DNA from: Sphaerochaeta pleomorpha str. Grapes | Lineage (GTDB): Bacteria; Spirochaetota; Spirochaetia; Sphaerochaetales; Sphaerochaetaceae | Assembly: GCF_000236685.1 (NCBI RefSeq) | Contig: NC_016633.1 | Coordinates: 992,001 to 1,056,000, forward strand | DNA: 64,000 nt | Reading direction: 5' to 3' | Part shown: positions 7,200 through 16,909 of the stretch, in pieces | Layout of the letters: each line of letters opens with the position of its first letter | Numbering within the stretch: the first letter of the stretch is position 1 | Notes under the pieces: generated by a model | What the model saw: only the letters and a program-made list of their open reading frames with translations | Told to the model about the DNA's origin: nothing | Databases searched by the model: none | Translations under genes and position numbers: made by a program

Positions 7200-8486
7200 A
7201 TGAAACGTAGGATCTATTTCCTTCTTATCACTTTTCTATCCTTTTCCAATCTGCTCTTTGCATTTTCCCCCGATAGTCTGATCGTAGGAACCGGAAACGA
7301 CTGGTATACCCTCGGGCTGGGAGTCAATCTCGATGATGGGCTCTCCTTCGGGGGACAGTTGCAGGCCACTGAGAAAAACCTACAGCTGAACGCCGCAATC
7401 TGGGCCATTACCGATAAAGTCGAAAACCTGAAACGCTACGACCTAGGCAAGGCAGATATTTCCTATGCCTTGCACTCGAGCTATCAGGGTTTTCTGGTTT
7501 CTGCAAAGCCGAAACTAGGATTTCTTGCCGTTGGCAATTTTGGATTGGCAACCATACAGAACACCTTCCACACTTGGATAGGGCGGGACAGACTCTTTCT
7601 CGACTATGAGACTCCTTATTCGTTGCTGTATGCTACCATCGGTTCGGATTTTACCCTTTCACGCCGACTGGGAATAATCGAAACTGGAGTCAAGGGGACC
7701 TACGACAAGGTAATAGGCTGGGAAACCAATCGTTCTGCAACATTTTTTATCAGCCTTGGCTCGGTTCTCACCATCCAGGCAGGCTATCTCTCGGTAGTCA
7801 ACCAATTCACCGGCTGGGAAACCCATAACAAACTCAGCGAAAGCTATACAGGCCCCATTTTGGCCTACCGGTTTGACGGAGGTCTTTTCCAGACTGACTG
7901 GATCTACCACGGATCGGGACAGACTTCCTATGGGACGTTAGGCCTTGATGTTATGCAGTTTTTTGCACCGAAGACCTACAAAGAAACCGACTTCACGTTC
8001 AGCTCGGGTTTTCTCTATGATACGCTGGGACAACAGAACCGACTGTTTTCCCTCTCTTTTCATGGTGTTGTCTTTGAAATCAAACACATGAACGGTCCGA
8101 TGTTCAATGCCTTTGACCAACAGGACAAACGCATCACCATCGCCTCCTATATGGTTGGCTATAGCCGGGAATGTACCGATACTGGTTTCGTGAGACCCTA
8201 TGGGAAATTCTTGGCAGGCATCCAGCGATACAATTTAAATGAAAACTATACAGACACAAAAATCGAAGAGCTACGTCCTACCCTCGGTATCGAAAGCGGA
8301 TTGCTCATAGCCCCTGAAGGAACCTGGGTGACAGGAAACAATTCCTATCGGCTCAATTTGGTTCTATCCCTGCAGTATGTGTTCAAAACAGAGGCAATCC
8401 AAGCAATCGATGCAGATTTCGCAGCCCATGCAGAAAACTGGATCCTTATGGCAGGGTTTGCCCTTGAGATCGACCATGATTTATAG
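7200..8486 (+). CDS. Exported hypothetical protein, probable outer-membrane beta-barrel
   Basis: Family not recognised. A 428-residue protein with a clear signal peptide (RRIYFLLITFLSFSNLLFA) followed by alternating hydrophobic/polar strands rich in Gly, Tyr and Phe and without later membrane helices, a pattern expected for a beta-barrel or periplasmic beta protein. The ATG abuts the stop of uup (TAA then ATG), so translation is probably coupled. No catalytic motif is visible. An outer-membrane location is an inference from composition only. Confidence 0.6.
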   Translation: MKRRIYFLLITFLSFSNLLFAFSPDSLIVGTGNDWYTLGLGVNLDDGLSFGGQLQATEKNLQLNAAIWAITDKVENLKRYDLGKADISYALHSSYQGFLVSAKPKLGFLAVGNFGLATIQNTFHTWIGRDRLFLDYETPYSLLYATIGSDFTLSRRLGIIETGVKGTYDKVIGWETNRSATFFISLGSVLTIQAGYLSVVNQFTGWETHNKLSESYTGPILAYRFDGGLFQTDWIYHGSGQTSYGTLGLDVMQFFAPKTYKETDFTFSSGFLYDTLGQQNRLFSLSFHGVVFEIKHMNGPMFNAFDQQDKRITIASYMVGYSRECTDTGFVRPYGKFLAGIQRYNLNENYTDTKIEELRPTLGIESGLLIAPEGTWVTGNNSYRLNLVLSLQYVFKTEAIQAIDADFAAHAENWILMAGFALEIDHDL

Positions 8487-8666
8487 CCTGGAAAAGGAAC
8501 ACAAGGTGCCTTCTGTATGTATAGGTATTTATTAGCAAACCTTCTCGGTTCGCTTGAAAAAAATACCTGCTAATCGTACAATGCATAGTGTATTTACCAT
8601 AATATACTTCATACAGAGGTTCCCCCGACTGCCCCTCTGGCAGTGCCGAATCCAATCAAGGATTGC

Positions 8667-9656
8667 ATGCATACCAATCATTCAATTGTAATTTTATACA
8701 ACAAACCGGGACTGAATGCCCCTGAAGACGTTCTCGACATCGTACGGCAGGCCGAATGGATTGCAGAAATCCTTTCAGCAAAGGGCTATGGAGTCAGCCT
8801 TCAGCCCTTCTCTTTGCAAGTGCTGGAAGAGCTATCGCAAAAGCATACAGAAACCCCGCTTTTGGTATTCAACCTCGTGGACTCTGCACCCGGTGAGGAA
8901 AACCTCGCCTACCTTGTACCGGGAATGCTTGAATATCTGCAGCTGCCCTATACAGGCTGTTCTCTACACTCACTTTATACTACCACAGACAAGATGCTTG
9001 CAAAACGCATGTTGCGAAGCCGAGGCATAGCAACCCCCGACTGGGTTGTTTTCGGTGAAACAAACACCTTTGTGCCCTCGCTTCGGATGCAATACCTGGT
9101 AAAACCGGTTGCTGAGGATGCCTCGATCGGACTCGGTGAAGATTCCCTCGTACAGGCAGACAGCCTGCATTCGGTAGAAGAAGCTATCAAACAAATAGCA
9201 AAGAAGACAAAAAAAGAGTGTTTTGCGGAACAATTCATTGAAGGCAGGGAATTTACCGCCTGCATGTATGGCCCCAAGGACAATCCAGTCATCCTCACCC
9301 CTTATGAGTGGGTATTTAAGGATTATGAGGCAAACAACAAAGCCAAGATTATTACCTATGATGCAAAATGGACGGAAAACTCGTTTGGCTATGACCATAT
9401 CGAGGCCAAATACCATGCCGATGAGAAAGATTTGCCTTTGCTGGATACCCTTTCAGATATTGCCCGCCAATGCTGGGATACCTTTTCCCTCAAAGGCTAT
9501 GCCCGTGTAGATTTCCGCATCGACGAACACAACAAACCCTGGGTGCTCGAAGTAAACTGCAATCCCAGCTTCTACGGTTTCTATCATCTTGCACTGGAAG
9601 GAAAATTCTCCTTCGAGGACCTGGTAGAAACCATTGTTGAGGTAGCCAGTATCTGA
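8667..9656 (+). CDS. ATP-grasp ligase, D-Ala-D-Ala-ligase-like (paralogue A)
   Basis: A 329-residue ATP-grasp protein. Visible landmarks are PYTGCSLHSLYTTTDK and LAKRMLRSRGI (N-terminal/central fold), LVKPVAEDASIGL (ATP-grasp lysine and glycine-rich loop), AEQFIEGREFT and the metal-binding end YARVDFRID...LEVNCNPS. These motifs are shared almost word for word with the ligase encoded at 10611-11588, so the two are paralogues. The start ATG 8667 follows AAGGA; an in-frame GTG at 8643 is less likely. It converges on the GNAT/ligase/aminomutase operon with a 4-base gap. Annotation as cell-wall D-alanine ligase would be unsafe; it more likely joins an amino acid or small peptide in the pathway of its neighbours. 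Confidence 0.75.
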   Translation: MHTNHSIVILYNKPGLNAPEDVLDIVRQAEWIAEILSAKGYGVSLQPFSLQVLEELSQKHTETPLLVFNLVDSAPGEENLAYLVPGMLEYLQLPYTGCSLHSLYTTTDKMLAKRMLRSRGIATPDWVVFGETNTFVPSLRMQYLVKPVAEDASIGLGEDSLVQADSLHSVEEAIKQIAKKTKKECFAEQFIEGREFTACMYGPKDNPVILTPYEWVFKDYEANNKAKIITYDAKWTENSFGYDHIEAKYHADEKDLPLLDTLSDIARQCWDTFSLKGYARVDFRIDEHNKPWVLEVNCNPSFYGFYHLALEGKFSFEDLVETIVEVASI

Positions 9657-9660
9657 CCGT

Positions 9661-10122
9661 TTACAGATATTTGTCGACCCAGACCAGTTTTTCCAGTTCA
9701 AACCCATTCGAACGGTAGAGATCCTGAGCCCTTTCATTAGCCGGGTGCGTCACCATTGCAAAATAGACACACCCGTTTTCCTTTGCCCAAGTCTGGACAA
9801 ACGAAAGGAGTTCGGACCCCAACCCCTGGTTCCTGCATTCAGGGGATACATAGAGTTCATTCAACCAAAGGTAATCCCCGCCATTTTCCATGCCACTGCA
9901 GACATTGCCATAGGCAAAGCCTATTGCTGTCTCATCTTCTTCATAGGCGACAAAGAATATGGAGCGGCTTCCGCTTTTCATGGCGTTTCTCATTACAGCA
10001 ACAATCTCGTCGTTTGTCTTGGTATACCCGATGAATTGCATCTGTTTCTGTATCAGCGTTACCACATGCGGAAAATCGGCAATCTCGAGGGTCTGCCGGT
10101 AGGGTAGTATCGAATAATTCAT
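9661..10122 (-). CDS. GNAT-family N-acetyltransferase
   Basis: A 153-residue single-domain GNAT. The acetyl-CoA-binding motif A reads VSPECRNQGLGSELL, preceded by the beta-4 strand LWLNELY and followed by the usual YRSNGFELEKL end. It has a strong AAGGAG ribosome-binding site and lies 16 bases downstream of another GNAT, as the last gene of a five-gene operon (radical SAM aminomutase, two ATP-grasp ligases, two GNATs). From context it could acetylate the product of the ligases or the epsilon-amine of a beta-lysine moiety. It is shorter than, and not obviously related to, the beta-lysine acetyltransferase AblB. Substrate not determinable. Confidence 0.75.
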   Translation of the reverse strand: MNYSILPYRQTLEIADFPHVVTLIQKQMQFIGYTKTNDEIVAVMRNAMKSGSRSIFFVAYEEDETAIGFAYGNVCSGMENGGDYLWLNELYVSPECRNQGLGSELLSFVQTWAKENGCVYFAMVTHPANERAQDLYRSNGFELEKLVWVDKYL

Positions 10123-10138
10123 ACAGTCTCCTTGTTTC

Positions 10139-10621
10139 TCAGAGCGCTTTTACATACAGCAGTTTGTTATCGCCAGGGGCATAGTAGTCCTTGAGCTCTG
10201 CTTCCAGCATATACCCATTGCGCTCATAAAAGGAACGGGTTGGAACATACAGCGGGGTGGAAGATGTCTCGATATAGACCCGAGTCCCTCCCCTCTTTGC
10301 TATCTCACGCTCACTGCAGTTGAGCAATTCCGTACCCAGTCCTTTGCCCCGAAAATCATTGTCAACGGCGATCCAATAGAGGTCGAAACTTGATTGGGTT
10401 CCTGGAATCGGGCCGAAACAGGTATATCCCAAGACCTTTCCGTTCTGCTCGGAGAATTGGAAGAAATACCCGCACTCCTCCCCTTTTTCCAGGCGTTCCT
10501 CAACCAAAGAAACCCCAACCTGCTGCTCTTGCCCGTTAAAGAATCCGGAGCCCTTTAAAATGGAAGCGACTGCATCTATATCGGAAAAAACGGGTTGCTC
10601 CCGGAAACTACTAGTATCCAT
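10139..10621 (-). CDS. GNAT-family N-acetyltransferase
   Basis: A 160-residue GNAT with motif A at VDNDFRGKGLGTELLN and C-terminal SFYERNGYMLEAEL. An AAGGA ribosome-binding site precedes ATG 10621, and its first 11 bases overlap the end of the upstream ATP-grasp gene, so the two are translationally coupled. This tight coupling to a ligase suggests a direct functional link, such as acetylating or capping the ligase product. It is quite different in sequence from the next GNAT gene, so it is not a recent duplicate. Substrate unknown. Confidence 0.75.
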   Translation of the reverse strand: MDTSSFREQPVFSDIDAVASILKGSGFFNGQEQQVGVSLVEERLEKGEECGYFFQFSEQNGKVLGYTCFGPIPGTQSSFDLYWIAVDNDFRGKGLGTELLNCSEREIAKRGGTRVYIETSSTPLYVPTRSFYERNGYMLEAELKDYYAPGDNKLLYVKAL

Positions 10622-11588
10622 ATATACATCCTTGGATAATCTGTTCGATCATTGCATTGTAGGGAAACCCGGCACGCTCACAGGCAGCAGTAAAACCGCT
10701 ATCCGATGCTATGCAGGGGTTCATATTGACTTCAAGCACGAAAGGATTACCCTGCGAATCAACTCTGAAATCGACCCGGGCATACCCTTTGGCTCCAAAG
10801 AGAGTCCAGCATTGGAGGCTCAATTCCTTGAGCCTGGAAAGGAGGCTTTCATCGGAAAGGGGGAAATCAAAGGTTCTCTTCGTGTGGGTATAGGCAAAGG
10901 AATCTTCTTCCCATTTGGCCTCATAGCCGGCAATTTCCGGTTTCCCCTCAGGATAATCCAAAAACACCATCTCAGCTGGAGGCAACACAGTGGGGACCCC
11001 GTCGACTGACCAGATGGAGATATTGAATTCCCGTCCTTCAATGAATTGTTCTGCGAAAAAGGGCCCACCTTCTTTCGTTGCAAGAACCTGCAACAAGGCC
11101 TTTGGGGAAGAAAAGGTCTGAATTGAGTTATCATTGATCCCTACCGAAGCCTCTTCTGCCACAGGTTTAATAATGAGTGGCATTCCCATTAAATCAGAAA
11201 TATTGCCAGTATCCTGTACTGCAACCCAGAGGGGAGTGGGAATCGAGGAACGTTCCATTAGTTGCTTGGCCAACAATTTATCAGAGGAAAGGAACATCCC
11301 TTTCGGGCCACATCCTGTATAGGGAATGTGCATGGTTTCAAAAAATTCAGGGGCAAGGTGGAGCAAACTGCTCCCTGAGAGAGTCTCCACAAGATTGAAG
11401 ATTACAGCAGGGAGTTTTGCCTCAAGTTGTTCTTTCATTACCTTGAAATCGAGTGAAAACTCAAGCTGGTCAACCTGATGACCGAGGCAAGACAACGCAA
11501 AGGATACCTGCTCGACCTCGAGCAGGGTATCCAATTCGTCTTTCGTTGGGTGATCAAAGAGTTTATCATGGACAACCAATACATTCAT
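10611..11588 (-). CDS. ATP-grasp ligase, D-Ala-D-Ala-ligase-like (paralogue B)
   Basis: A 325-residue ATP-grasp enzyme. It shares PYTGC, KPVAEEASVGI, AEQFIEGREF, YEAKW, KGYARVDFRVD and LEVNMNP with the ligase at 8667-9656, marking the two as paralogues. The ATG at 11588 overlaps the previous gene's TGA by one base (TGATG), so the two ligases of this operon are made together. Two consecutive ATP-grasp enzymes usually imply two successive ATP-dependent amide-bond formations. I see no evidence that it makes D-Ala-D-Ala for the cell wall, since no mur, ddl or mra genes are nearby. Confidence 0.77.
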   Translation of the reverse strand: MNVLVVHDKLFDHPTKDELDTLLEVEQVSFALSCLGHQVDQLEFSLDFKVMKEQLEAKLPAVIFNLVETLSGSSLLHLAPEFFETMHIPYTGCGPKGMFLSSDKLLAKQLMERSSIPTPLWVAVQDTGNISDLMGMPLIIKPVAEEASVGINDNSIQTFSSPKALLQVLATKEGGPFFAEQFIEGREFNISIWSVDGVPTVLPPAEMVFLDYPEGKPEIAGYEAKWEEDSFAYTHTKRTFDFPLSDESLLSRLKELSLQCWTLFGAKGYARVDFRVDSQGNPFVLEVNMNPCIASDSGFTAACERAGFPYNAMIEQIIQGCIYGY

Positions 11589-12574
11589 CAAGCCGATTCC
11601 TTGAGAATCCTAGCCATTGCCGATTCCATTATCCTTTCGATGAGCTGTCTATAATCGACTCCGGAGAGCCTGCAAAGGATGGGTAGGTCGGAATCAACCG
11701 GATTCAAGCCCGCAAGCGGATTCACTTCCAGAAAGTTCACCCTTCCCTGCCCATCTGCCTTCAAATCGATTCGCCCGCCATCCCGGCAGCCTAGTGCCCT
11801 CCAAGCCCCAAGGGCTACGTTCTCACATTCCCTGGCAAGGTCACCCTCAATCAGATTGTATCTTGCATAATGCAGGTACTCCTGTTTTGTCTTATAGGAA
11901 TATACACCCTCATCGCTCTGTGGATCGACAACGATTTCCATAACGGCTACGCAACAAGCCTGTTCCCCGGTTCCGGTAATACCAACGGTAAATTCCCGGC
12001 CCTCAAGGTACGTCTCTGCCAGAACCGGTTGCCCGAAATCCCGAAGCAGGCGAATCGCTTCCCTTTGCAGGGAAGTGTTGTCACGCACGATGGAACTGGC
12101 ACTGATTCCCATGCCTGTACCACCGCCAACCGGTTTAAGGAAGAGGGGAAAGGGCAAATGCATTCGTTCGAGGTCTTTCTCCTTTTCGATAACCAAGTAT
12201 TCGGGAGTCGGTACCCCACTTTTCTGAACAACTGCCTTGGTCATCCCCTTATGGAGGGCAAGGGCCAAAACCAGTGCATCGGAAAACACATGGGGTATAG
12301 AATAAGCATCGAGCAACGCAGGGATCTGAGCCTCCCGGCCCAGACCATAGAGCCCCTCGGCTATATTGAAAACAAGGTCACATCGCTTTCCTTCTGCCAG
12401 AAACTGTACAAGGTGCTTGATGTTTCCGATCCTGACTGTCTCAAAGCCAAGGCTTCTGAGTGAATCATCGATCGCATCGATGGTCTGCAGGTTGTCAAAT
12501 TCTGCGACTTTCTCCAGGGCAAAGCCCTGCTGAAGATAGTCATCTTTCAAGTCATAGGTTATTCCAACCAGCAT
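11588..12574 (-). CDS. ATP-grasp ligase (third, more divergent member of the cluster)
   Basis: A 328-residue protein with an ATP-grasp core: LFLKPVGGGTGMGIS (ATP lysine and glycine-rich loop), AETYLEGREFTVGI and DGGRIDLKAD...FLEVNPLAGLNP. The glycine-rich loop and the C-terminal NPLAGL differ from the two other ligases here, so it probably uses a different acceptor. The start ATG 12574 sits one base after the stop of the aminomutase gene; the frame is open further upstream, but those residues lie inside the aminomutase gene and do not look like ATP-grasp sequence. It may use the beta-amino acid made by the aminomutase as a substrate (inference). Confidence 0.75.
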   Translation of the reverse strand: MLVGITYDLKDDYLQQGFALEKVAEFDNLQTIDAIDDSLRSLGFETVRIGNIKHLVQFLAEGKRCDLVFNIAEGLYGLGREAQIPALLDAYSIPHVFSDALVLALALHKGMTKAVVQKSGVPTPEYLVIEKEKDLERMHLPFPLFLKPVGGGTGMGISASSIVRDNTSLQREAIRLLRDFGQPVLAETYLEGREFTVGITGTGEQACCVAVMEIVVDPQSDEGVYSYKTKQEYLHYARYNLIEGDLARECENVALGAWRALGCRDGGRIDLKADGQGRVNFLEVNPLAGLNPVDSDLPILCRLSGVDYRQLIERIMESAMARILKESA

Positions 12575-12575
12575 A

Positions 12576-13709
12576 TCAATTCTCTGTGCCCTCTTCGGCA
12601 CGGTCGGGATAGGCAAAGACCCTTCCCTCATAATTGCGAAGATACAGGTTGCCTGCATCATGGCCTACTTCATACTCAGGGAGAATAGGCACCTTGCCTC
12701 CGCCTCCCGGGGTATCGATTACATACTGGGGAATGGCATATCCACTGGTAAAACCCCTGAGGCCATGGATCAATTCCTTGCCTTTGGCTACCGTAGTGCG
12801 GAAATGTGCCGATCCTGATATTGGGTCACACTGGAAAAGGTAATAGGGTTTGACGCGCACTTTCAGCAGCTGGTGGTAGAGCTCAGTCAAGGTCTCGACC
12901 GAGTCATTCACTCCCTTGAGCAACACGGACTGGCTTCCCATGACTACCCCGGCGTCAGCAAGGTTGTTGAAGGCCTTTGCCGATTCTTCGGTTATCTCAT
13001 CGGGATGCGTGCAATGCACACTCAAATAAAGCGGTTTGAAACGCTTGAGAATCTTCAGCAACTGAGGCGTTATTCTTTGAGGCAGTACGACAGGGACCTT
13101 TGTTCCTATCCTCACCATCTCGATATGTGGGATGGAAAAGATTTCAGTAAGCAGATACTCGATTCGTTCGTCGGATAAGGTAAGGGGGTCTCCTCCGCTG
13201 ATGACGACATCGCGGATTACCGGGGTATTCCTGATATATTCGATTGCTTCCTTCCAATGCTTTTCCAAAGCCTCGGAATGTCCACCGACAAGTCTGGACC
13301 GGGTACAATACCGGCAATAGACCGAGCAAAAGCTTGTAGTCAGGAAAAGCACCCTGTCAGGATACCGGTGAACAATTCCCGGAACCGGACTGGTATTCTC
13401 TTCATGGAGGGGATCGTCACTTTCACCCTCACAGGTAAAGGATTCCCTGATAGAAGGTATGACGGTTTTCCGTAATGCGCTGTTTTGGTCTTGGAGGTTG
13501 ATGAGACTTAAATAGTAGGGAGTTACTGAAAAGGGAAATTGGGTGACTGAAAGTTCAAGGGCTTGCCGTTCTTCCAAAGTCAGGTCAATATATCTTGTAA
13601 TTTGTTCAAGGGTGGTAATTCTATGGGAAAGTTGCCAGTGCCAATCGTTCCACTCTTGGTTTGTCGCGTCCGGGAAAAAGGCCTTCCTGAACTGTTTGGT
13701 TTTGTTCAT
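12576..13709 (-). CDS. KamA-family radical SAM protein, lysine 2,3-aminomutase-like
   Basis: A PLP- and SAM-dependent radical enzyme of the lysine 2,3-aminomutase family (family knowledge). Counting from ATG 13709 (377 residues), the [4Fe-4S] cysteines are C128, C132 and C135 (FCSVYCRYC), the PLP lysine is K339 in PGGGGK, and the two aspartates that hold the substrate side-chain amine in clostridial lysine aminomutase are present as D295 (QCDPISG) and D332 (VIDTPGG). This agrees with lysine rather than glutamate as substrate. The C-terminal Cys-rich tail of clostridial enzymes is absent. The frame continues 72 codons upstream to 13925, but that part has no family similarity; the 13709 start gives motif positions matching characterised enzymes. 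It heads an operon of two ATP-grasp ligases and two GNATs. Confidence 0.85.
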   Translation of the reverse strand: MNKTKQFRKAFFPDATNQEWNDWHWQLSHRITTLEQITRYIDLTLEERQALELSVTQFPFSVTPYYLSLINLQDQNSALRKTVIPSIRESFTCEGESDDPLHEENTSPVPGIVHRYPDRVLFLTTSFCSVYCRYCTRSRLVGGHSEALEKHWKEAIEYIRNTPVIRDVVISGGDPLTLSDERIEYLLTEIFSIPHIEMVRIGTKVPVVLPQRITPQLLKILKRFKPLYLSVHCTHPDEITEESAKAFNNLADAGVVMGSQSVLLKGVNDSVETLTELYHQLLKVRVKPYYLFQCDPISGSAHFRTTVAKGKELIHGLRGFTSGYAIPQYVIDTPGGGGKVPILPEYEVGHDAGNLYLRNYEGRVFAYPDRAEEGTEN

Positions 13710-14098
13710 CGAGGCACTGTTGTGCGACCTCGGAACAACCCGATTCCAACTCGTCTGGAGATCATTCGAAGACGTACTCGAGAGCACGTCCCCCCGTGTA
13801 AGCGGAGGCTCCTCTTCATCAATAGCAACTACTTGTCTAGTATTGAATTGATCCACGATACACTTCCTTCGATCGCGGTAACCTGAGTCCTTGTTGTCGT
13901 ACCGGAACCAGGTCCCGTAAAACATCTCAGTTATCTTTGTCGCGATTGTAACACTATTACAAAAAAACTACACTCAGCTAACCATTCTTTTTGAAAAAAA
14001 AGTATAAATTCAGAAAAGAAACCAGACTCCCAGCATAGGCAAACCCAAAACTTGAACAAGGACTGACCAAATGCCCCTGAGCACTTCAAACATCCCGT
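13710..14098. other. Long leader / intergenic region upstream of the aminomutase operon
   Basis: No convincing gene. On the minus strand, 13710-13925 is in frame with the aminomutase but has atypical codon use and no similarity to KamA proteins. It can instead fold into several short stems, for example CCTCCG/CGGGGG and GACGT/ACGTC near 13780-13830, so a structured 5' leader is possible. A perfect inverted repeat TTGTAA-CACTA-TTACAA lies at 13946-13962 and could be an operator or part of the promoter. No clear terminator for the gene ending at 14099 was found. Confidence 0.35.
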
Positions 14099-16813
14099 TT
14101 ACCAGGGCAAGGCAGGGGTAATTCCTGTCTGGAATAAGCCTGCTATCCCCACAAACCCTTTCATGTCCCCCGTTGCAGTGCTCACGCTCAAACCAATATA
14201 TGGCATGAATACCGCAGAGGAACCCATTACTATTTCAAAGGAAAGTTTGGCACTGACATACACGTCTTCTTCCCAGCTTACCTCTCCCTCTTGCAAATAG
14301 ATTGCACTTTGCCCGGCAAACGACAGCCCCATTGCAGTCAATCCGCCATACGGGACCGGTTGGTCGAACAAGCCGAGGGGAATCTGGTAGCGCAAGGACA
14401 GCAAGGCCTTTGCCTTTCCGTCTTTCTGCCCATACACAGAACCGTCGAAAGGCAAATAGGAATTGAGGCTCCCGGTATTGGTTGCCAACATGTCGATTGC
14501 CAAAGCCACATTCTGGTGCGTCTTAAAAACCTGCAACGCAGAAAAAAAGCCACCAAAGGGGCGGTACAACCATGCATTTTGCGAGGTATCGAAAAGACCA
14601 ACGATTCCCGCATAGGCAGAAAAAGAAGTAGCCCCAAAGAAATCCTTTGGATCTGAACGTGCACTGATTTGGTAGGAAGTTTGCAAAGCAGAGCCTAGAC
14701 GTAGGGTATCGGGACGGGATATGAATGAAAATGCCAAGTTGGAGGATACCTGCTGAAAAGTCTTGACCCCGGTTCGCAGCCATACGGGTATGAGGGCATT
14801 CACTTCGATCAACTGCTGCCGTTTCTGATCAGTTCCATACAATTGGTTGGCAAACGCATTGCATAAGAGAGAATAGGGACCGGGGGTGTAGCTGTATTCG
14901 AAACGCAAGAGGGGTAGCTGGGCATCAAGGCTGTAGCCTGCCTGGGCAATGAGCTGGTGTTTCCTCAACAGGCTGGTAAAATGCGACCAGACTCCCAAGG
15001 CCAAGGAGTTTCCATCATTGAGAGGAAGGGGAAGGAACAAGTTGAACCGAAGGTAATCATGATACGATTCCACATTGAAAGCCTGCAGGCCTTCACTAAT
15101 ACGTCCAGTAACACTGCTGTCTATCGAAACAGGGGCAAAGGACAGGGCGGAGAAAGGAAGGGAACAGAGTGCATACCCGTTTGCCGTATAGGTTTCATAG
15201 AAAAGCTTGTCGTCTTGCTGTACTGCCCCCAGGATAGAAAGAGAATCGAGAAGGGCCTTCTCTACGGTTTTCGACCCAATCGAAAGTCGGTACAGGCAAA
15301 AAGTGCCTGTCTCATCTGAAGAGAAAAGAAGCGTATCTTCATCAAGGAACCGGGGGTTGCGAATTTCTCCCTTGCCATATCCTACGAGAACTGTCTTTTT
15401 CCCGTTGCCATCTATTTGGATAAGAGCAGATTTTCCCCGGACAATCTCGATGGCAACCACCGAAGAGAAGTCAGCCGATAGCTGCGGTGCATAGACGCTC
15501 CCCTCTTCTGTCTCATAGAGAACAGTGATAGCACCGGTATGTTGGTCTAATGCAACCAACCGGTATCGATCGGCAACCCGCTCAATAGCTACCAAATGCT
15601 GTGCATCTGTACTCAAAGAAGGTTGATACAGTTGTTTCTTGGTAGTAATCCTGTCAAAGGAATCCGATGCCAGAGAATAGCTATAGAGGTCAGCATAACC
15701 GACAGGGGTCAAAGACAGGGATGCCGGATGGGTAGGTTCGGTCCAATACATCGAGAAGACTGCCTTCTGGCCATTTTTTGCCAAAGAAACGGCTTGGCTA
15801 TCGTAAACAGGCAATCGCGTTATAGTGCGGGGACCTTCCTGTCCATAGGAAACAAGGATCCCTCCATCATCGAGAGTCGAGGCAAAACCAAGCAACCCCT
15901 TGTCTGTGGGAAACGGAAGGAAATAGTTGCCTGGACTGTCAGGGGATAGCAAAGAATGGGTAGCCTTTTTCAATTGTGTTTCTTTCTCTTTCAGGGCAAA
16001 GGAGAAAAGCTCTTTACCGCTGTAGCCGGTCTCTTTTTTCAAGGTGTGGGAAACGCCGAGGAAAGGAAACCAGGCAAATGATGCATTTACCTTGGAGAAG
16101 AAGTCCACCCCGTAGGTTCGCATCAAATAGTCGACCATCAGGTACCCGGTCGTGTAGATACGGCCTGAGGGAGGATAGGCCGACTGATAATTTCCTTGGC
16201 TCAAACTCCACATGGCATGTTCCTGCAAGGGAGCTTCATAGGTCAGGGCAAACAGGGAGGAATCGCCTCGGCCCCCTTCTGCAAAGGCCGTCTCAGCATA
16301 GGTGGTAATTCCTTCAATCCACCAGCCATTCATAAAAGGGGTATTCATCGCCGTGACCGCAGGGCCAAAAATCTTTGCAAGATACTTTGCAGGACCAACG
16401 GGCGAAGTCAAGTGAATGTAATGGGTGACTTCATGGACAAACAAACTTTTAAGCCAATCGGAGGAACGAGATCCCAGAAACAGGTCGTCAGGACTGGTTA
16501 CAAAGAGAAAAACAGCTGAGGGAAATGGACTGTAGTACCCATTTGCCCAAGGGGTTCTCCCCGTAATGACAACGGGTATACGTTTTTGGGGAGTATAGGA
16601 TAGCAGACCGGTCAATTGTTGATATACGTCATCGGCAAAAGAAGCGACATGCTGAGCCGATTGCAAATCCACTGGTTCGAAAACCAGAACGAAATGCTGT
16701 GTCTCGATTTTCTCCCAACCAAGGTAGGGATTGTCCGAAGCATACAGCAATCCCTGTGAGAATATGAGGACCGTAAGACTAAAACACAGCCAGTATCTCA
16801 TGTTGCTTCGCAT
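14099..16813 (-). CDS. Exported HExxH metallopeptidase-like protein with beta-propeller and C-terminal beta region
   Basis: A 904-residue exported protein (counted from ATG 16813, preceded by GAGGAG and GGA) with signal peptide YWLCFSLTVLIFSQGLLYA. An N-terminal domain carries a gluzincin zinc motif, H127-E-V-T-H131 in LFVHEVTHYIH, with a likely third ligand E167 in WWIEGITTYAE, resembling the peptidase MA group. The middle third has TolB/WD40-like repeats (DLYSYSL, YRLVALD, LYRLSIG). The last third is beta-rich and ends in Trp, as outer-membrane barrels often do. A protease anchored to or inserted in the outer membrane is the best reading; its target is unknown. It sits downstream of ilvE but is separated from it by a terminator. 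Confidence 0.65.
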   Translation of the reverse strand: MRSNMRYWLCFSLTVLIFSQGLLYASDNPYLGWEKIETQHFVLVFEPVDLQSAQHVASFADDVYQQLTGLLSYTPQKRIPVVITGRTPWANGYYSPFPSAVFLFVTSPDDLFLGSRSSDWLKSLFVHEVTHYIHLTSPVGPAKYLAKIFGPAVTAMNTPFMNGWWIEGITTYAETAFAEGGRGDSSLFALTYEAPLQEHAMWSLSQGNYQSAYPPSGRIYTTGYLMVDYLMRTYGVDFFSKVNASFAWFPFLGVSHTLKKETGYSGKELFSFALKEKETQLKKATHSLLSPDSPGNYFLPFPTDKGLLGFASTLDDGGILVSYGQEGPRTITRLPVYDSQAVSLAKNGQKAVFSMYWTEPTHPASLSLTPVGYADLYSYSLASDSFDRITTKKQLYQPSLSTDAQHLVAIERVADRYRLVALDQHTGAITVLYETEEGSVYAPQLSADFSSVVAIEIVRGKSALIQIDGNGKKTVLVGYGKGEIRNPRFLDEDTLLFSSDETGTFCLYRLSIGSKTVEKALLDSLSILGAVQQDDKLFYETYTANGYALCSLPFSALSFAPVSIDSSVTGRISEGLQAFNVESYHDYLRFNLFLPLPLNDGNSLALGVWSHFTSLLRKHQLIAQAGYSLDAQLPLLRFEYSYTPGPYSLLCNAFANQLYGTDQKRQQLIEVNALIPVWLRTGVKTFQQVSSNLAFSFISRPDTLRLGSALQTSYQISARSDPKDFFGATSFSAYAGIVGLFDTSQNAWLYRPFGGFFSALQVFKTHQNVALAIDMLATNTGSLNSYLPFDGSVYGQKDGKAKALLSLRYQIPLGLFDQPVPYGGLTAMGLSFAGQSAIYLQEGEVSWEEDVYVSAKLSFEIVMGSSAVFMPYIGLSVSTATGDMKGFVGIAGLFQTGITPALPW

Positions 16814-16857
16814 TTGGTTCCAAACTCCTCGATGTAACTGTACTACAGGTTGTGCAC

Positions 16858-16888
16858 AAAAAAAACCCTGTCCAACAAAGGGACAGGG
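16858..16888 (-). terminator. Rho-independent terminator after ilvE
   Basis: A perfect 8-bp stem (CCCTGTCC/GGACAGGG) with a 7-base loop, followed on the minus strand by a run of eight T. It begins about 20 bases after the ilvE stop, so it ends the ilvE transcript and separates it from the peptidase-like gene downstream. Confidence 0.88.
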
Positions 16889-16909
16889 CAAGTGAATGTA
16901 TATTTTCAA

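Follow-up and report, generated by a model that had tools for sequence, protein, structure and literature searches.

Beta-lysine serves as the modifier of EF-P in the EpmA/EpmB system, and in the synthesis of the osmolyte N-acetylglutaminylglutamine amide (NAGGN) an ATP-grasp enzyme and a GNAT acetyltransferase make a capped dipeptide. To our knowledge, the NAGGN system has no aminomutase. The logic of beta-lysine osmolytes is known (PMC3543383, PMC9337991), and linked ATP-grasp peptide ligases acting in sequence with a GNAT cap are a general expectation published by the Aravind group (PMC4431377). Here we are interested in a block of six genes in the complete 3.59-Mb genome of Sphaerochaeta pleomorpha str. 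Grapes, which resides in a stretch of 64,000 nucleotides (NC_016633.1, positions 992,001 to 1,056,000; the whole stretch is referred to as the window). The block encodes a KamA-family aminomutase, three ATP-grasp ligases (LigA, LigB, and LigC) and two GNAT acetyltransferases (GNATa and GNATb). Judging from sequence comparisons, it probably constitutes a so far uncharacterised pathway whose product is a cationic amide or peptide that contains beta-lysine and is capped by an acetyl group, and we estimate the probability of this reading at roughly 60%.

All six genes were confirmed with the order, strands, and spacing that the initial annotation of this DNA had described, i.e., a minus-strand run KamA-LigA-LigB-GNATa-GNATb with LigC converging on it:

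12576-13856, minus strand: KamA-family radical SAM/pyridoxal phosphate (PLP) aminomutase, 426 amino acids, GTG start
13800-13820, minus strand: D-E-E-E-P-P-L motif at KamA residues 13-19, within the disordered N-terminal tail, supported by motif statistics
11588-12574, minus strand: LigA, ATP-grasp ligase of the FNIAEG / NPLAG..SDLP type, Ddl fold family, in a clade of its own
10611-11588, minus strand: LigB, ATP-grasp ligase of the FNLVE / NxNPC type, Ddl fold with conserved catalytic residues
10139-10621, minus strand: GNATa, acetyltransferase of the 2R7H family (profile match to PDB 2R7H, E=2e-53)
9661-10122, minus strand: GNATb, lineage-specific acetyltransferase, 23% identical to GNATa
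8667-9656, plus strand: LigC, third ATP-grasp ligase, lineage-specific and on the LigB side by its clade position

The Pfam domains are LAM_C and Radical_SAM in KamA and the ATP-grasp domain Dala_Dala_lig_C in LigA, LigB, and LigC, accompanied by the two GNATs. A single base separates the KamA stop codon from the LigA ATG; LigA and LigB overlap by 1 base and LigB and GNATa by 11 bases, followed by a gap of 16 bases between GNATa and GNATb and a convergent gap of 4 bases between GNATb and LigC. LigC starts at the ATG at 8667 or, alternatively, at the GTG at 8643. The KamA start had previously been placed at 13709; we moved it to the GTG at 13856, adding 49 residues, because a ribosome-binding-like site (GAAGGAAG) lies upstream, homologues align through the resulting tail, and the tail bears a conserved motif.

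To follow the block beyond this strain, we scanned 84,980 species with the LigA alignment, which returned at least 519 relatives, and examined 80 loci. KamA was present in 74, LigB in 66, and GNATa in 58 of these loci, almost always arranged as KamA-LigA-LigB-GNATa, with the genes overlapping or separated by short gaps. The bacteria that carry this core are diverse and for the most part anaerobic; they belong to Spirochaetota, Bacteroidales, Syntrophales and other Deltaproteobacteria, KSB1, WOR-3, Planctomycetes, Acidobacteria, and the gammaproteobacterium Dasania. Only four Sphaerochaeta-like loci among the 80 also contain LigC and GNATb. About half of the sampled genomes of the genus carry the block, and LigC and GNATb are absent or unlinked in several genomes of the genus. 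Because the block recurs in the genus at a LigB identity of only 40-58%, and the four-gene core turns up in different phyla, the arrangement is not due to chance. As read from these neighbourhoods, the general unit is KamA with two ligases and one GNAT, to which the Sphaerochaeta group appears to have added LigC and GNATb. The pathway candidate of the initial annotation thus holds as far as the combination of aminomutase, ligases, and GNAT is concerned; its third ligase and second GNAT are lineage-specific rather than general, and sometimes unlinked.

We also counted genomes per phylum with a LigB profile at a threshold of E<1e-90, where all counts are lower bounds from samples. Matches occurred in 20 of 296 Spirochaetota genomes, 19 of which have KamA or LigA within 1.5 kb, and in 46 of 247 genomes from the phylum of a deltaproteobacterium (G063), with KamA present in all 20 loci examined. 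In the phylum of a Bacteroidales genome (G061), G061 alone passed the threshold, and the core is therefore rare there. About 52 of 296 genomes of the G061 phylum encode LigB-like ligases with E values of 1e-60 to 1e-86, often two each (e.g., G679, G675, and G729). Similar LigB-like ligases at two loci (L232 and L233) come after a conserved gene of approximately 337 amino acids.

The window KamA passes the cut-off of the general model TIGR00238 and scores below that of every specific one: 465 bits with the AblA model TIGR03820 (cut-off 525.4), 270 bits with the EpmB model TIGR03821 (369.3), 431 bits with the glutamate 2,3-aminomutase model TIGR04368 (650), and 368 bits with that for arginine aminomutase (600). 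By score, it is thus not AblA. The CxxxCxxC motif, Arg134, Asp293, Asp330, and Lys337 (2A5H numbering), which we take to serve the substrate pocket and PLP as in 2A5H, are all retained. Among 75 KamA rows from the clusters, Asp293, Asp330, and the PLP lysine Lys337 are kept in all; the cluster cysteines and Arg134 are present in 73, the other two rows having gaps. Motif and residues together place the protein in the catalytic family of lysine 2,3-aminomutases. Glutamate aminomutases are reported to differ at the positions of Asp293 and Asp330. The assignment of KamA as a putative lysine-type aminomutase is well supported by its residues, and by its scores it is neither AblA nor EpmB.

Could the ligases simply be D-Ala-D-Ala ligases that happen to lie next to an ordinary KamA of lysine fermentation or of the AblA type? 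The best hidden Markov model names are indeed Ddl and lysine 2,3-aminomutase. However, LigA, LigB, and LigC all score below every Ddl/Van cut-off, and in a tree of 62 rows, nine true Ddl, including that of this genome, split from all cluster ligases at 100/100. LigA forms its own clade outside Ddl (100/100), and LigC forms a single clade (100/100) nested in a joint LigB and LigC clade (100/100). Since the genome has Ddl and AblA elsewhere and the gene order is conserved across phyla, tree and neighbourhoods contradict such an incidental clustering, to which we give next to no credence. An identity of the ligases as ordinary Ddl was rejected on scores and tree alike. The objections that the initial annotation had raised against its own proposal, namely a neighbourhood confined to this strain, ligases grouping with Ddl, and an EpmB-like aminomutase, found no confirmation.

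The cluster ligases belong to the ATP-grasp carboxylate-amine ligase superfamily, as indicated by the ATP and Mg2+ residues K97, K144, E187, R255, D257, E270, and N272. In 75 LigA, 64 LigB, and 9 LigC sequences, the counterparts of Ddl Lys97, Lys144, Glu187, Lys215, Arg255, Asp257, and Asn272 are invariant; Glu270 is kept in LigA and LigC and is Asp in three of the 64 LigB. Differences appear at the acceptor site. LigA retains Ser281 and has Asp at the position of Leu282, in LigB the position of Ddl Gly276 is invariably Cys and the Ser/Leu pair is gone, and LigC has Ser at Gly276. The predicted structure of LigB, with a predicted local distance difference test (pLDDT) score of 92, matches Ddl structures; the acceptor-carboxylate site of LigB has changed. 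We also considered LigC and GNATb as a duplicate of LigB and GNATa, which we rejected for the GNAT in view of the low identity between GNATa and GNATb, even though LigC does group with LigB.

The genome encodes AblA and AblB elsewhere (684 and 297 bits, both above cut-off), and neither GNATa nor GNATb matches the AblB model TIGR03827. A further KamA is located 5.6 kb from an EpmA-like gene, which scores just below its cut-off, and a separate Ddl is also present. Other genes of this genome thus account, or plausibly account, for the established functions of beta-lysine. For the same reason, we rejected AblA/AblB and the EF-P pathway as the identity of the block. A fourth, remote KamA-like gene (30% identity) lies in a frame of 718 residues (G000:C1:1910814-1911845; L004, L228).

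These genes bear on two further readings. Attachment of the beta-lysine from KamA to a protein or transfer RNA, as in EF-P beta-lysylation, would be compatible with the ability of ATP-grasp ligases to modify proteins (PMC4431377). It is nevertheless very improbable: the score of KamA is below the EpmB cut-off, another KamA is situated with the EpmA-like gene at a different place in the genome, and the ligases belong to the Ddl type, which acts on small molecules, and are not linked to any target protein. The second reading takes the product as an osmolyte, as the initial annotation had suggested among other roles. The established osmolyte logic of beta-lysine and the capping by a GNAT speak for it, and a deacetylase found in some clusters would permit turnover. 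A simple osmolyte role is weakened, though possible, because ablA-ablB coexists in the same genome and, judging by the titles of their records, freshwater, groundwater, peat, or digester samples are the source of many host genomes; moreover, a search for Rfam riboswitches in 9 kb of the window and in ten other loci gave no match. We regard it as unlikely. An acetyl-capped beta-lysine amide or peptide, the other part of that suggestion, fits as a candidate.

Genes that join the core elsewhere give hints about the product. Fusions combine two ligase domains in one frame (L091), LigB with GNATa (L097), and, in a KamA cluster, GNATa with agmatinase (L125; 221 bits for the agmatinase against a cut-off of 174). 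At least 15 loci contain, within the cluster or at its edge, a protein of about 580 residues that starts like a GNAT and contains a histone-deacetylase domain nearest to acetylpolyamine amidohydrolases. A DMT_6 (DUF486) membrane protein, possibly a transporter for the product, is found in or beside six clusters (L104, L119, L129, L205, L207, and L217), either between LigB and GNATa or adjoining. In two WOR-3 loci (L109 and L123), clusters of KamA and LigA only are accompanied by an S58-family peptidase, whose relatives include the aminopeptidase 1B65 and the beta-peptidyl aminopeptidase 3N2W. The earlier remark that no transporter, NRPS, or cell-wall partner lies nearby needs qualification for related loci, some of which have the transporter-like gene inside the cluster; a deacetylase, agmatinase, or S58 peptidase may join as well. 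At another locus, a LigA-like ATP-grasp domain is fused to an S58-family peptidase (L040:5726-7879, minus strand) and followed by a deacetylase-like gene (L040:4705-5736), which possibly represents a related ligase/hydrolase system. A LigA-like ATP-grasp domain was also observed in fusion with a methyltransferase (L039:5604-7544, plus strand), with similar frames of 636-730 amino acids in several Spirochaetota.

Some clusters have only part of KamA or none of it. In three Bacteroidales clusters (L073, L076, and L102), the catalytic domain of KamA is gone and an N-terminal fragment of 129-157 amino acids is left. A full-length KamA is encoded elsewhere in each of these genomes; in two, it adjoins 3,5-diaminohexanoate dehydrogenase of lysine fermentation, and this fermentation-linked KamA would also supply beta-lysine. 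Sister clusters without KamA, found in several Deltaproteobacteria (L230, L231, L236, L238, L240, L241, and L244-L247), start with agmatinase and/or pyruvoyl-dependent arginine decarboxylase, followed by LigA' and LigB'; some of them also include a GNATa relative. Where checked, the agmatinase and the decarboxylase score above their cut-offs. LigA' and LigB' occur together with KamA at two loci (L248 and L253). The sister clusters suggest interchangeable cationic building blocks and are themselves a candidate for an undescribed polyamine-conjugate pathway; our search of the open-access literature for arginine decarboxylase and agmatinase in combination with ATP-grasp gave no relevant hit. As LigA and LigA' form separate clades in the tree of 62 rows, the sister clusters do not prove a shared chemistry, and the substrates may differ.

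It is hence conceivable, if on balance doubtful, that the ligase product is a diamine or polyamine-like molecule carrying an aminoacyl group, in which beta-lysine and putrescine or agmatine are interchangeable cationic parts, and that it serves as a polyamine substitute or nitrogen store. The sister clusters in about ten deltaproteobacterial genomes, the fusion of GNATa with agmatinase inside a KamA cluster, the kinship of the deacetylase, and the loss from LigB of the Ser and Leu residues with which Ddl binds the acceptor carboxylate all point in this direction. On the other hand, LigA retains Ser281, part of the acceptor-carboxylate site, the clades of LigA and LigA' are distinct, and the minimal KamA-LigA clusters have no adjoining polyamine gene.

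The KamA proteins of the clusters have a variable N-terminal tail with a median of 78 residues, which is found in neither AblA nor fermentation KamA. EPP, with S, G, or L as the predominant next residue, occurs in 99 of 106 tails, compared with a mean of 4.7 and a maximum of 14 in shuffled tails. After removal of relatives with more than 75% identity and with D allowed for E, [ED]PPx was found in 59 of 60 non-redundant tails (shuffles: mean 4.4, maximum 13). Acidic residues ahead of EPP are also conserved. The tail of the window KamA is predicted to be disordered, with pLDDT <50 for residues 1-47. Where KamA has no tail (L248 and L253), the EPP motif resides in a loop of LigA', and the stand-alone KamA fragments of the three Bacteroidales clusters retain EPPS. 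The arginine-decarboxylase clusters do not have the motif apart from one match inside LigB' of L235, where a contig end cuts off the upstream part of the cluster.

Most likely, the EPP[S/G/L] tail docks KamA to a partner in the pathway. The motif might instead slow the translation of the operon's first gene as a proline-dependent, EF-P-sensitive brake, given that it resides in the first gene even when this is LigA' or the KamA fragment. Ser, Gly, and Leu are not known as the strongest stallers after PP. Their prevalence at this position, together with the conservation of the preceding acidic residues and the absence of the motif from the first genes of the arginine-decarboxylase clusters, speaks against a brake, which we nevertheless regard as a live, if less likely, alternative to docking.

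The proposed beta-lysine pathway would begin with the conversion of L-lysine to beta-lysine by KamA, as its residues suggest. LigA, with an intact active site, would form an acyl phosphate and couple beta-lysine to a partner. LigB, with its altered acceptor-carboxylate site, may form another amide bond, with an amine as a possible acceptor, and GNATa would acetylate the leftover free amine, a step that the acetylpolyamine-amidohydrolase-like deacetylase of related clusters could undo. Docking through EPP[S/G/L] would hand beta-lysine to the partner instead of losing it to AblA/AblB or fermentation routes. In Sphaerochaeta, LigC and GNATb might modify the product further.

Several observations weigh against this proposal or parts of it. 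Asp293 and Asp330 would suit other cationic amino acids as well, arginine included. In all arrangements examined, the EPP motif lies in the first gene of the operon, which a translational role would fit equally well. The arginine decarboxylase/agmatinase sister clusters suggest an amine as the acceptor, but a position of beta-lysine at an N-terminus is what the S58 neighbours suggest, so that the two point to different orders and directions of ligation. For the broader proposition that KamA-LigA-LigB-GNAT assemblies with an EPP[S/G/L] docking peptide make widespread, undescribed acetyl-capped beta-lysine amides or peptides, and that the sister version swaps in an arginine-derived diamine, we see a chance slightly short of even.

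If the proposal is correct, bacteria of many phyla, among them several major anaerobic groups, share an unrecognised beta-lysine metabolite, whose pathway has escaped notice because of the D-Ala-D-Ala ligase annotation of its ligases. The GNAT family of 2R7H, for which a structure has been solved but no function assigned, would gain one, the ligases would be new amide ligases accepting beta-amino acids, and a short EPP motif may couple a radical enzyme to downstream ligases.

As for the surroundings, the block is flanked by a 428-residue protein (window 7200-8486, plus strand) without a Pfam match and a 936-residue protein (window 14099-16909, minus strand), also without a Pfam match and with only a weak match to a TolB propeller. 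Adjoining genes for an acyl-CoA synthetase, a response regulator, and a LysA-like protein were set aside as separate since they lie outside the operon and recur in few loci only. Promoter and terminator scans returned sites about as numerous as in shuffles, or fewer.

We found no description of a pathway with an aminomutase and ATP-grasp ligases in open-access papers, to which our search was confined, with the subscription literature outside it. The block shares with AblA-AblB, the pathway to N-epsilon-acetyl-beta-lysine, a KamA-family aminomutase and a GNAT, with beta-lysine as the likely intermediate here too, but it adds two or three ATP-grasp ligases, and its KamA, a paralogue that scores below the AblA cut-off, bears an EPP tail. 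With EpmA-EpmB, it has in common a KamA-family enzyme that would supply beta-lysine, whereas the block includes no EpmA homologue and its KamA falls below the EpmB cut-off. Fold and catalytic residues relate the ligases to Ddl/Van, from which they differ by their separate clades and altered acceptor-site motifs, with the true Ddl encoded elsewhere. Unlike NAGGN synthesis, the block has no amidotransferase of the asparagine-synthase type. Sequentially acting, linked ligases and a GNAT cap are shared with the ATP-grasp/GNAT operons of the Aravind group, for which no aminomutase is named (PMC4431377). We place the block among the ATP-grasp ligase pathways rather than regard it as a categorically new system.

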